A stretch of DNA of 48,826 bases, taken from contig VEMX01000010.1 of assembly GCA_009711805.1 (NCBI GenBank), positions 1 through 48,826 on the forward strand, in the 5' to 3' direction. How positions within the stretch are numbered: position 1 is the first letter of the stretch; the number at the start of each line of letters is the position of its first letter. The position numbers and the translations under genes were made by a program. Positions 8,441-45,429 of the stretch are shown here, piece by piece. The notes beneath the pieces were generated by a model. That model was given only the letters and a program-made list of their open reading frames with translations, searched no databases and was not told where the DNA came from. The stretch is from Balneolaceae bacterium. GTDB taxonomy: Bacteria; Bacteroidota; Rhodothermia; Balneolales; Balneolaceae.

Positions 8441-8458
8441 AAACCCCGAACGGGGTTT
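8441..8458. repeat. perfect GC-rich hairpin
   Basis: AAACCCCG and CGGGGTTT separated by AA. It sits at the left edge of composite repeat copy A. There is no T run, so a terminator role is less likely. Confidence 0.5.
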
Positions 8459-9060
8459 CATTACAGCAAACGAAGCCCGTCGAGCGCTGACTTGCTTTAG
8501 GAGGAAAAGTTGTTGTACGTGCGCCTCCAACCCCATCTCATTTAATGTTAGGGGCAATACATGGTGCGATGCCCGGATGGAAGTCAGAGACTTCCCGGTC
8601 ATATACTTTTCAGTCACCGCTCCGCTCAAGACCGAAAAATCCGGAGGGCTATGGTAACAGCGTTGAGGTATATCCCAACCATATTTAGGGAGATCGCCGC
8701 CTCGGAGCTATACCAGGCCTAATTAAAGTCCCAGGCTCCTCGCGAATGGAGGTCTTTACTACTTTTCAAAAGAATCAATAAACATATCCTTATCACCGGA
8801 GCATCGGTTTTGTTTGTGAAGAGCAACCAGCCAAAACAATACTCATTGCCCTTTACCTCCCACCTCACCCTGCTGAAAACATCTGTAGTACCACAAAGAG
8901 AGAGCTTTCCAATAGGTCCCAAAATCTCAGCAGTAAGTAACCGATCTATAGATGAGCCAGGCAAGTCCTCTCCTCCAGGAGAGGATTTAGGTGAGGTGGA
9001 GTACACAGCAGTATCAGCCTTCATAGCAACTAACCATATCAATGCTGATTGAGGTAGTGA
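8454..9060 (+). repeat. composite REP/MITE-like repeat, copy A
   Basis: The left module starts TTTCATTACAG and contains the TCGAGCGCTGACTT block. The main module is bounded by CCACCTCACC (8860-8869) and its reverse complement GGTGAGGTGG (8990-8999), with a perfect inner hairpin TCCTCTCC / GGAGAGGA (8966-8985). It ends with a block shared with copy B (CAGCCTTCATAGCAACTAAC). The order of blocks is the same in copy B. Confidence 0.6.
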
Positions 9061-9101
9061 TTACCCTAAAGCACTCTTAAGTCTTACAGCGAGTATTGGG
9101 G

Positions 9102-9500
9102 GTTTCATTACAGAGAACCAAGCCCATCGAGCACTGACTTAAGAGGCAACAGCCTCGCAAGGCTCTGATTTGCTGCAGGAGAAAGAATTGATATACGTAC
9201 CCTCCAACAAGTATAGAACCAGAAAATACCATTCACTCCCCTTTCCCCCGACCTCACCCTGCCTTGACATCCCTTCGGGATACCCTCTCCTTCCACAAAG
9301 AGAGAGCTTTCCAATAGGTCCCAAAATCTCAGCAGTAAGTAACCAATCTACAGATGAGCCATCAAGTCCTCTCCTTCAGGAGAGGATTTCCCCATAAGGG
9401 GTGCCTTCGGCAAGGTGAGGTAAAAGTATATGGCAACCTCAGCCTTCATAGCAACTAACCATATCAATGCTAATAGAAGTAATACCCATATTTAACAAAA
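9102..9500 (+). repeat. composite REP/MITE-like repeat, copy B
   Basis: The second tandem copy. TTTCATTACAG and the TCGAGCACTGACTT block come first, then ACCTCACC (9251-9258) and GGTGAGGT (9414-9421) as bounding arms. The inner hairpin TCCTCTCC-TTCA-GGAGAGGA is at 9367-9386. The central block from CACAAAGAGAGAGC to GATGAGCC is nearly identical to copy A, while the left module is shorter. Confidence 0.6.
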
Positions 9501-41985: not shown

Positions 41986-42035
41986 AAGCTATCTCCGTAA
42001 TGTTACTGTGAATATTATTGATATTAGGAGATGCC

Positions 42036-42407
42036 GTGTTGAGTGATTCCATTAAAATACTCATAGCAGAGGAGAACTATGTAATTTCTCTTGTCCTTCA
42101 ACGAATGATTGAAAAGCTTGATCATCAATGTGTAGGCTTAGCCACTTCTGAACAGGAAATAATAGAACTGACAAGAAATACCACTCCGGATGCAATTATT
42201 TTGGATACTTCTTTTGTGGACGCCAAGGGCTTAAAAAAAATAGAAAAGACAATAGAAGCCATGAATACTTCTATCATCTTTTCTTCAACAAGAAAAACCG
42301 ATGGCATTACTTTTGGAACGGCCCAAAACAGCTCTGGTCACTATCTGTCAAAACCTTATTTAATAACAGATCTTAAATCTGAAATAGAGAAAATACGCCC
42401 CTCTTAA
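42036..42407 (+). CDS. receiver-only response regulator
   Basis: A 123-residue stand-alone CheY-like receiver without output domain. The acidic pair is EE (IAEENY), the phosphorylatable Asp sits in AIILDTSF, the Ser/Thr in IIFSST and the Lys in LSKPY. I use the GTG at 42036, 5 nt after AGGAG; a TTG at 42039 or a longer TTG frame at 42018 are alternatives. No histidine kinase is encoded nearby. The stop codon TAA is part of the left end of the element at 42404. Confidence 0.78.
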   Translation: MLSDSIKILIAEENYVISLVLQRMIEKLDHQCVGLATSEQEIIELTRNTTPDAIILDTSFVDAKGLKKIEKTIEAMNTSIIFSSTRKTDGITFGTAQNSSGHYLSKPYLITDLKSEIEKIRPS

Positions 42408-42625
42408 CCCGGATTATTCACCAAGAAATTTAATCGTACGCAAGGCGAAGTAGAAATGGGAACGGAACTTAAGTACCCCAATTTTCACTTGAACGCAGCG
42501 TACGGGGAAATTTCGCCGCCTAATCCGTACCTCAAAATTGGGCTATTACATAAAGCAATTCAACGGTAATATATTCAAGTGTATAGATCGCCATTTTGCA
42601 TCCATTCGTGAATAATTCGGGTTAA
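42404..42625. mobile_element. non-autonomous TTAA-ended element, long copy
   Basis: About 222 bp with terminal inverted repeats: left TTAACCCGGATTATTCAC, right GTGAATAATTCGGGTTAA, one mismatch. Inside, CCCCAATTTT and AAAATTGGG form a second inverted repeat around a GTACGGGG block. It has no coding capacity. A short copy is at 43518-43608, identical in most of its length but lacking about 130 bp of the centre. The ends carry TTAA and provide the stop codons of both flanking genes. Confidence 0.72.
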
Positions 42626-43065
42626 CAGCATAGCGTGGTTTCAGTTGCCTGAAGGTTTGGTTTACAAGCGGTCGGATTTATTGATAATCCCAACGTCAGT
42701 TCATCAGCAGACTCTTCTACAAGATGAACTTTGTACTTAGCTGCTGAATGTGCGGTATCGCCATACTCGATGTACAAATCCGAATCTACCTCAATGGGCC
42801 TGGATGCATCTATCTTCTGAATGATCGATAGAGCTTTTCCAACGGTCCAGTCTGCTTCACGCGTAGAATGTTCATTCACCCATAACTGAATAACCGTTTC
42901 CTTGAATGAATGTACATTGCCGCCACAGTCAACAGAGTCAATATCCTGGTTCTTGATTTCCGTAATATGGAGATCCCCTCCTATATGCGTACCGTCAGGT
43001 AATTGGAAATTCAGATTGCGGTTTTTATTCGTCTCTAATGTTGTTAATAAAGTGGAAGTATTCAT
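42622..43065 (-). CDS. DUF6428 family protein
   Basis: A 147-residue soluble protein of DUF6428, commonly found beside arsR in Bacteroidota arsenic loci. It starts MNTSTLLTTLETN, with LNFQLPDGTHIGGDLHITEIK typical of the family, and ends with a Cys-rich tail TACK...TLCC. The Cys positions suggest arsenite or metal binding, which is inference. It sits 41 bp downstream of arsR in the same direction. Its stop codon overlaps the right end of the TTAA element. Confidence 0.82.
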   Translation of the reverse strand: MNTSTLLTTLETNKNRNLNFQLPDGTHIGGDLHITEIKNQDIDSVDCGGNVHSFKETVIQLWVNEHSTREADWTVGKALSIIQKIDASRPIEVDSDLYIEYGDTAHSAAKYKVHLVEESADELTLGLSINPTACKPNLQATETTLCC

Positions 43066-43106: not shown

Positions 43107-43436
43107 TTAGCAGCAGCTTTTTGGATTAGCAGGTTCGTCCAAAAACAGTGAAATGTCAGCCTTAAATTTTTTAATGGCTTCCGTATTCAGGCAGTAGCAT
43201 ACACTGGTACCTTCAATTTCTCCGGCTATCAGTCCAGCTTTCTTTAGTGCTTTTAGATGCTGCGATACCGTAGATTGAGAAAGCGGCAATTCATCTACAA
43301 TATCACCGCATACACATGATTTTTGCCGTGCCAAAAAGTGAATGATAGCAATACGGGCAGGGTGCCCAATGGCTTTAGCTACTCCAGCCAGGTAATTTTG
43401 GCGATCTGTAAATTCTTCTGATTTAGATTTCCCCAT
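43107..43436 (-). CDS. arsR: ArsR family repressor
   Basis: A 109-residue winged-helix repressor that releases DNA on binding As(III) or a similar soft metal. The metal motif CVCGD (C41, C43) lies at the start of the recognition region as in ELCVCDL-type Ars[18 protein letters not shown] is the recognition helix, and a C-terminal CC pair is present. The palindrome ATCGT-N6-ACGAT lies 7 bp upstream of the start codon. Co-regulated genes are DUF6428 and possibly the acetyltransferase. Confidence 0.9.
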
Positions 43437-43458: not shown

Positions 43459-43517
43459 CAATAATACCTATAATTTGAATCAGGTGCAAACAAGCCTTTT
43501 ATTTCTTCTTCATACAC

Positions 43518-43608
43518 TTAGCCCGGATTATTCACCAAGAAATTCAACGATAATATATTCAAGTATATAGATCGCCATTTTGCATCCATTCGTGAATAAT
43601 TCGGGTTA
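43518..43608. mobile_element. non-autonomous TTAA-ended element, short copy
   Basis: About 91 bp: TTAGCCCGGATTATTCACC at the left, GTGAATAATTCGGGTTAG at the right. Apart from the missing centre it matches the long copy, with few changes (for example AACGATAATATATTC). It lies inside the 3' end of the acetyltransferase frame and supplies its C-terminal tail and stop. Confidence 0.72.
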
Positions 43609-44003
43609 GCCGATGCCGGACATATTTTTGAAAACTGGGTGCTTTTTTGCACTCCCTCCGGTACCTCTCCCCGTTTTATAACAATGAAGCCAAGCTGCTC
43701 AAAAAAGCCGGTCGTACTTTCTGTGAGTAAGTAGATTGGCTTTCTCCCAAAATCCTGTACCAGCTTTTCAACCAGTTGAGCTCCAATTCTCTTGCCTCTT
43801 TGAGTACTATGAACAGCAACCGATCTCAGTAACAGATTATCACCAAAAGACTGCACCGCTCCTCCAGCTATCACCTTGTTGTTGTTCAAGCCTACCTGGA
43901 AATCAATGGCATCAATATCTACATCCTCTGTTGGAAGGTTACTATCTGCCAGCAGCTTCAGGATTTCCAGGTAATGCCGTTTGTTCGCTTTCTGAATTTT
44001 CAT
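43518..44003 (-). CDS. ArsN2-like GNAT acetyltransferase, element-extended
   Basis: A 161-residue GNAT protein of the arsenic-locus ArsN2 type. The acetyl-CoA loop is RSVAVHSTQRGKRIG, then YLLTESTTGFFEQLGF and the ArsN2-like ending STQFSKICPASA. The last 28 or so residues are encoded by the inserted TTAA element and look foreign. I chose the ATG at 44003; a GTG at 44036 is possible. The gene overlaps the 3' end of the YdbT-like gene by 62 nt, which is long. It may N-acetylate arsenicals such as arsinothricin; substrate not known. Confidence 0.78.
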   Translation of the reverse strand: MKIQKANKRHYLEILKLLADSNLPTEDVDIDAIDFQVGLNNNKVIAGGAVQSFGDNLLLRSVAVHSTQRGKRIGAQLVEKLVQDFGRKPIYLLTESTTGFFEQLGFIVIKRGEVPEGVQKSTQFSKICPASANPNYSRMDAKWRSIYLNILSLNFLVNNPG

Positions 44004-45429
44004 GAGTTCCGATAAGCCATTTATAAGTTTTATCACAATCCTCAGACCTGAGATCGTTTATAGTAAAAGCGATACCATCCGAGCCAGAAGCTGCCATCAC
44101 TTTTAAGTGCTCTATATTTTTTCTCCGCTGAAAAGGATTGCATGACGATTCAATATGTTGAATTCTTTTTTTTCGGACAAGGGCTGTAGTCCGTGCAAGT
44201 ACCCTATACCGCATTCTTAAAAGACTTTCACCAATGCCGAGGGCAGCATCCTTATATCGCAACCATCCAAGAGCAACTGTAAGAGGAGTCAGGAATATCA
44301 GCGTCCATCCATAACTCCAGAACAACCAGGCACCGGGCAACAGTACCAAAAAGAGCAGATAATTTGGGCGACGTATATATCGCATGAAGGATTTTTGGGG
44401 AGGGAAGGTATCATATTCGGGTTCATCAAATTCATCCAGAAACTGATTTAAAAAACCGGTGAGTTCTTCAGCAGCCAGGTAAGGCACCAATACAATAGAG
44501 CGTTCCTTGCTGTTCTGTTCAAAGCCTGCGCTTTCTACATACAGCATTCCATATCCAAAAGGCTGCCTTAATACACCTTCTACATAGCGTACTGCCTGTA
44601 TACGGTCGAACGGAATAGTGATTCGCTTACGCTCAATAAGCCCGCTTGAAACCAACAGTTCTTTTTCATGTTTTTCAACTTTAAAATCGGAGTATTTAAA
44701 AATGACTCCCAGAAAAGACAGCAGCCAGGAAACAACAATAATAAAAAGAATAACTGCGATCACCAGCGATATATTATTAAATCCCGGTAGTTTACTGTAG
44801 AGGTAATTCAGGTTTTCTTCATTTACAAACTGATCCATCTGGCCCGATATGGCACCTAAAATGGATGCAATAAGACCAAAGTTTCCGGAGGTTATAGCTG
44901 CATATACTAAATCCTTTTTAGAGATATTCCAGCTTTCATATTCTATCTCTCTCTCTTCTTGCTCCTTCTCTTTATTATCTTCGGTTTCAACACTTCTCCG
45001 TTTTCGCAGCTCAAGCCGCAGTTGTTCTGCTTCTTCACGGGTAATGGCACTTATGGTAGCCGATTCTGTGCCACTTCCTGCTGTTTTTACTTCTACTTTC
45101 ACAAGCCCGAACATACGCTGGAGGAGTCCTTCTGTAATATCAATAACCTGTATACGCTCTCTGGAGAGATATAAATTACTCCTTCTTAAAATACCTTTTT
45201 TGATTTGAAGCTCTCCATCAATAACACGGTAGGTAAATCTAAACCATCCGAAAATGCCCGCAAAAAAGGCCGTTACCAAACCAATGATAAGGGCATACCA
45301 AAAGTATTCACCACCACTTCCTGTACCTCCGATGAAAAGCAGAATAAGGAGGGTAACAAAATTTTGGCGAATTACTGCTAATAAACGGCTAATTGCTGCA
45401 ACCGGGTGCTGACGCTTAAATTCAGACAT
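43942..45429 (-). CDS. YdbT-like PH-domain membrane protein
   Basis: A 495-residue membrane protein of the YdbT family with three bacterial PH (bPH2) domains. Paired N-terminal helices (about 20-60) are followed by a first domain (about 65-140). Helices about 195-240 precede a second domain with ERKRITIPFDRIQAVRYVEG. A last helix pair (about 350-385) precedes a third domain with VRKKRIQHIESSCNPFQRR. Proteins of this pair act in envelope stress or transport control in Firmicutes; the role here is unknown. It overlaps its YdbS partner by 8 nt. Confidence 0.85.
   Translation of the reverse strand: MSEFKRQHPVAAISRLLAVIRQNFVTLLILLFIGGTGSGGEYFWYALIIGLVTAFFAGIFGWFRFTYRVIDGELQIKKGILRRSNLYLSRERIQVIDITEGLLQRMFGLVKVEVKTAGSGTESATISAITREEAEQLRLELRKRRSVETEDNKEKEQEEREIEYESWNISKKDLVYAAITSGNFGLIASILGAISGQMDQFVNEENLNYLYSKLPGFNNISLVIAVILFIIVVSWLLSFLGVIFKYSDFKVEKHEKELLVSSGLIERKRITIPFDRIQAVRYVEGVLRQPFGYGMLYVESAGFEQNSKERSIVLVPYLAAEELTGFLNQFLDEFDEPEYDTFPPQKSFMRYIRRPNYLLFLVLLPGAWLFWSYGWTLIFLTPLTVALGWLRYKDAALGIGESLLRMRYRVLARTTALVRKKRIQHIESSCNPFQRRKNIEHLKVMAASGSDGIAFTINDLRSEDCDKTYKWLIGTHENSESEQTALPGNPEAAGR

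Follow-up and report, generated by a model that had tools for sequence, protein, structure and literature searches.

Within a 48,826-nucleotide stretch of a Balneolaceae bacterium genome (contig VEMX01000010.1; hereafter the window), the reading frame of an ArsN2-like GNAT acetyltransferase crosses the whole of an 84-bp inverted-repeat element and is closed on the element's far side; the fold of the element and the number of its ends in the genome lie far beyond chance. The sequence makes it very probable that a MITE-like element, mobilised in trans, inserted six codons before the stop codon of this gene and that the C-terminus of the protein was thereby replaced, with the frame left open and the stop supplied by the duplicated target. 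Read in this way, the locus shows cleanly how a mobile element can replace a protein C-terminus, and the ancestral end is still legible just downstream. The features concerned are:

43518..44036, minus strand: ArsN2-like GNAT acetyltransferase ORF in its present form (Pfam GNAT families above cut-off; NF040501, 112 bits)
43606..43609, no strand: near copy of the duplicated target TTAG, which reads CTAA in the coding direction and has its TAA outside the reading frame of the gene (from the sequence)
43522..43605, plus strand: short-form non-autonomous inverted-repeat element, 84 bp, which, read on the minus strand, encodes the greater part of the 29-residue tail (from repeat comparison)
43518..43521, no strand: far TTAG target duplication, the TAA of which now serves as stop codon (minus strand, 43520-43518; from the sequence)
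43499..43517, minus strand: stranded former 3' end, with what is left of KCMKKK followed by the ancestral stop, a TAA at 43501-43499 (from the joined flanks)
43107..43436, minus strand: ArsR/SmtB-type regulator downstream of the acetyltransferase gene (from model matches)

The host gene and its new ending

Both PF13508 and PF00583 exceed their cut-offs in the acetyltransferase ORF in a Pfam search, and the best NCBI model is ArsN2 (NF040501). The cut-off of that model, 125 bits, is reached neither by the protein as it stands nor with the flanks of the element joined, and for this reason we use the name ArsN2-like. The name itself follows PMC6465285, which places arsN2 in a clade closer to N-acetylglutamate synthases and reports its own work on arsN1. 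With the regulator approximately 80 bp downstream, the gene lies beside an ars-type regulator, as expected of ArsN2. The ORF comprises 172 residues from a GTG at 44036 and 161 from an ATG at 44003, of which the ATG is the more likely start. A single-sequence AlphaFold2 model reached a mean pLDDT of 42.7 and was discarded, and the PDB profile matches end short of the C-terminal motif (4/4, among the matches listed).

A gene of ~480-495 residues (window 43942-45429) overlaps or is close to the ArsN2-like gene both here and in several relatives (loci L035, L036, L038, L039, L137, L142 and L145), and most copies share a similar NPFQ..K C-terminal region, which marks it as a conserved neighbour. 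At two further loci (L131 and L134) the ArsN2-like domain is fused to an extra C-terminal domain that resembles a cupin.

An earlier sequence-only reading of this DNA had proposed that a mobile element supplies the C-terminus with the frame open throughout, and this is borne out, as the minus-strand ORF 44036-43518 spans the entire element (AAC CCG AAT TAT TCA CGA ATG ... GGC TAA). The resulting tail, NPNYSRMDAKWRSIYLNILSLNFLVNNPG, exists as that reading described, at 29 residues rather than the "about 28" it had counted. The first tail codon (AAC) is composed of two bases of the target duplication and one base of the element, and the near-end TAA is read out of frame as GCT-AAC, exactly as had been noted. 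The position given for the stop, at the far end of the element, likewise stands; the codon itself lies entirely within the far copy of the duplicated target and not in the element proper. The term "exonised" does not carry over, since it belongs to eukaryotes, and here a bacterial ORF has received an insertion that duplicated its target. The tail contains a hydrophobic stretch, which might stand in for a lost last strand, and the plus-strand fold has a z of -6.2. Since the window copy shows 0 differences from the short-form consensus, there is no sign of selection on the tail.

These features most probably reflect the following series of events. A transposase acting in trans would have made a 4-bp staggered cut at a TTAA-like site, and the short element would have entered at a CTAA on the coding strand, six codons ahead of the stop. 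As the sequence shows, the near TAA lies out of frame, the frame of the element is open and the ORF is closed by the TAA of the duplicated target. Translation would then run straight through the element to that TAA, presumably leaving the GNAT catalytic core whole, with the altered C-terminus either tolerated or accompanied by some loss of stability or activity.

The former C-terminus downstream of the stop

The empty site was reconstructed by a script that removed the element together with one TTAG and joined the flanks. The joined coding strand reads GCT AAG TGT ATG AAG AAG AAA TAA, giving the protein end ICPASAKCMKKK-stop, and the former ending ICPASA-KCMKKK-stop continues the family motif Cys-Pro-x-Ser-Ala-x-x-Met. 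The bases 43517-43499, which hold this former end and its stop, now lie downstream of the present stop and are untranslated. The sequence-only reading had taken ICPASA for the family ending and the element for a pure addition of residues, and on both points it must be amended: the native protein goes on beyond ICPASA, and its conserved last six residues (KCMKKK), including the family Met, were lost as 29 were gained, a net change of +23 that takes the protein from 149 to 172 residues counted from the GTG start.

Comparison with the family supports the reconstructed ending. The C-termini of homologues continue in the same manner, as in CPASAVLMKKIL (the gene of genome G023), CPVSAVCMTIKI, CPDSAVCMKKEFAL and others, and Met occupies the place four residues past the motif Ser in 32 of 35 distinct homologues, counted by eye (39 loci minus 4 second copies from the same genomes), with Leu there in two and Arg in the remaining one. 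A search of 296 genomes with the NF040501 profile returned 57 hits at a score of 106 bits or higher, 56 of which reach position 130-133 of 133; only the window protein stops at position 127. Joining the flanks extends its match from 127 to 133 of 133 and raises the score from 112 to 120.9 bits, so that the deficit of nearly 9 bits in the NCBI model score is attributable to the replacement of the C-terminus by the element. A home-made profile built from the 35 homologues gives 138.5 bits for the joined form versus 128.3 for the occupied one, and 3 of 5000 random window continuations equal or beat the joined-form score in that profile.

The comparison that the sequence-only reading had suggested, with orthologues that lack the element, came out in its favour, as the tail is absent from all distinct homologues compared (0/35) and the match to each of nine relatives breaks off at residue 141-143 of 172. 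The empty-site inference draws on the joining of the flanks and on homologues that are 27-37% identical. The same gene with an empty site was not found in a second strain or species (best relative match E 1e-22), a further search gave one distant hit, a plasmid search for close relatives with an empty site gave no match, and viral contigs held 0 relatives and 0 short elements. For annotation, the last 29 residues should be left out of homology searches; the tail alone drew in ~60 further sites elsewhere in this genome in such a search.

The element family and its target sites

The family was characterised in the 4.08-Mb draft genome (99 contigs) to which the window belongs. A strict long-form pattern was found at 57 places and a short query gave 70 matches, and ~195 single ends across the genome fit CCCGRATTATTCAC when up to one mismatch is allowed, versus 0 for the reversed control pattern. 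The ends of the element are CCCGGATTATTCAC, and these terminal inverted repeats are identical at 15 of their first 18 bases in both the consensus and the window copy. Among 67 oriented copies, which are those in the fetched stretches and not a whole-genome total, the length is 228 bp in 51, 84 bp in six and 83 bp in one, with the remainder ranging from 44 to 236 bp, each size occurring once or twice. The 228-bp form has stops in every frame and no transposase gene of its own, and its copies agree with their own consensus at 97.4% or more (median 99.1%). Short, bounded by terminal inverted repeats and a 4-bp target duplication, dispersed and in high copy number, the element is MITE-like.

Identical 4-bp flanks accompany 59 of the 67 oriented copies (TTAA 44, CTAA 8, TTAG 4, and TTAC, GTAA and ATAA 1 each). 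Because the flanks covary between the two sides, they represent target duplications rather than element ends. TTAA, CTAA or TTAG makes up 56 of the 59 duplications, and TAA is present on one strand in all 59. An apparent strand bias of the target on the contig strand (TTAG 11, CTAA 0) was gone once copies were oriented by the element (CTAA 8, TTAG 4). Related elements occur in 30 of the 145 other genomes searched. A complete genome from another family of the order (G043) holds ~92 related-element ends, nearly all CCCGCATTATTCA, and the element family is therefore old and abundant in the order. An Rfam search gave no match, and among open-licence full texts no paper on the window element was found.

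We also sought a transposase that could act on these ends. Insertion sequences of the IS701, IS5-group and IS1380 families produce 4-bp TTAA/YTAR-like target duplications, with a YTAA-type target in IS701. A profile search of the genome gave two weak hits to PF13701, four hits to PF01609, none of which has element ends nearby, and none to PF13546, which we take as the model for the IS701-type transposase. As to derivation from IS701, the 4-bp target fits, but is unspecific, and PF13546 has 0 matches in the genome. In 17 other stretches of the 99-contig draft, most with unpaired ends, no transposase was recognised between the ends, and in three relatives with element ends (9 places in two, 92 in the third) no pair at transposase length was seen by eye. 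The window element shares a 4-bp, TAA-bearing target duplication with IS701, the IS5 group, IS1380 and also piggyBac, whose target is given as TTAA in PMC10140906, and differs from all of them in that no such transposase with matching ends was found in the genome.

Placement in genes and competing explanations

The placement of copies relative to genes was assessed with a home-made gene finder, trained on long ORFs and unbenchmarked, for 58 of the 59 copies with a target duplication (one lies too near a contig end, and the 8 of 67 without a matching duplication were not classed). Of these, 44 are intergenic, seven lie in genes, six on stop codons and one at a gene edge, whereas 1659 control sites from the same stretches fall in genes in 62% and on stops in 2.7% of cases. 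Insertions on stop codons are thus in excess (6/58 vs 45/1659, p 0.005), and the excess is not significant when only sites outside genes are compared (6/50 vs 35/469, p 0.27), so that loss of gene-breaking copies suffices to account for it. Three of the in-gene copies are near 3' ends, in the window acetyltransferase, a tyrosine recombinase (locus L003) and a truncated EamA permease (L119), and the other four break genes close to their starts. In five of the seven, the element is read from the same entry end and in the same frame, starting NPNYSRMDAK. At L003 (G000:C12:172-3262) a further 84-bp copy, read in the same frame, has put NPNYSRMDAKW in place of the last nine residues of the tyrosine recombinase.

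A sister element in the window illustrates an insertion on stop codons:

42408..42621, plus strand: sister element, long form, 214 bp, with target duplications TTAA at 42404-42407 and 42622-42625 (from repeat comparison)
42018..42407, plus strand: response-regulator-like gene, its stop TAA within the sister element's left target duplication (from gene calls)
42622..43065, minus strand: DUF6428 gene, its stop TAA within the sister element's right target duplication (from gene calls and a model match)

Its target TTAA is the former common stop of these two convergent genes, and the duplication gave each of them a separate TAA. An order-wide family with TAA-bearing targets could serve to gauge how often elements reuse stop codons. 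A broader proposal holds that the family is pre-adapted to harmless landing at gene ends, with stops duplicated by the TAA-bearing target and a short form that is open from end to end and closed by the target TAA, and that it gave a working resistance enzyme a new C-terminus in a manner that could recur across the order; we regard this as very improbable.

Against replacement of the C-terminus in a functional gene, it could be argued that the loss of the motif and the 29-residue tail destroyed the enzyme, and that the ORF is a pseudogene that has merely not decayed. The lost residues do carry a family-wide motif, the profile score falls by 9-10 bits in the occupied form, and an element copy identical to the consensus allows for an insertion so recent that decay is not yet visible. 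The ORF upstream of the tail is nevertheless intact and coding by gene-finder score, and it shares all 10 columns that are invariant in an alignment of 19 sequences, its own included, such that we consider a pseudogene possible but unlikely. At the other extreme, the tail or hairpin might have been recruited to stabilise the protein or mRNA, or to tune translation of the arsR gene downstream. A strong hairpin is predicted in the mRNA at the element (-25 kcal/mol, z -3.8), between two co-directional genes, and short forms (<110 bp) lie in genes more often than long ones (4/8 vs 3/50, Fisher p 0.005, from few cases). The window copy is undiverged from its consensus, however, other in-gene copies mostly break their host genes and there is no second genome to show conservation, which together make recruitment extremely improbable.

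A further alternative concerns the form in which the element arrived, and supposes that the 228-bp form landed first and was shortened at this site to 84 bp when imperfect repeats recombined. Removing 144 bp from the 228-bp form does yield the 84-bp form; the break falls within an imperfect direct repeat of 11 bp, AAG[AC]AATT[TC]AA, at points that differ slightly among short copies. Seven copies of 83-84 bp nevertheless have nearly the same junction, six of them with their own matching target duplication, for which a mobile short form is the simpler explanation, and the two-stage history appears doubtful. We favour insertion of a mobile short form that replaced the end of the acetyltransferase.

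Insertion events of this type are already published for the QMITEs of Coxiella, the palindromic elements (RPEs) of Rickettsia and the NEMIS of Neisseria. In Coxiella burnetii, PMC5896051 describes QMITE1 and QMITE2 as MITEs that, at gene 3' ends, provide the last residues and the stop (its Table 2), including a 33-residue end of EnhC in strain Dugway, and locates the insertions in genes of known function at 3' ends. The window case is alike in that a MITE at a gene 3' end provides the final residues and stop codon, and differs in element, host, genes and tail, and in having its stop within the target duplication. The Rickettsia elements encode a conserved peptide and nearly half of them lie in ORFs, according to PMC10969869; they resemble the window case as short palindromic elements read in frame within a host protein, and differ in being more frequent in ORFs, as only 7/58 copies of the window family are in genes and most such genes are broken. 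For NEMIS/Correia elements, PMC2229807 describes a 107-bp form with open frames that is found fused to genes and a 155-bp form with stops that is nearly all intergenic. NEMIS is a different element, and the window family shows the same split of short and long forms between gene and intergenic placement, in small numbers.

Elsewhere in the window, positions 8452-9481 contain three families of direct repeats (42-69 bp, 84-97% identity, spacing 402-647 bp), perhaps as a result of local duplication.
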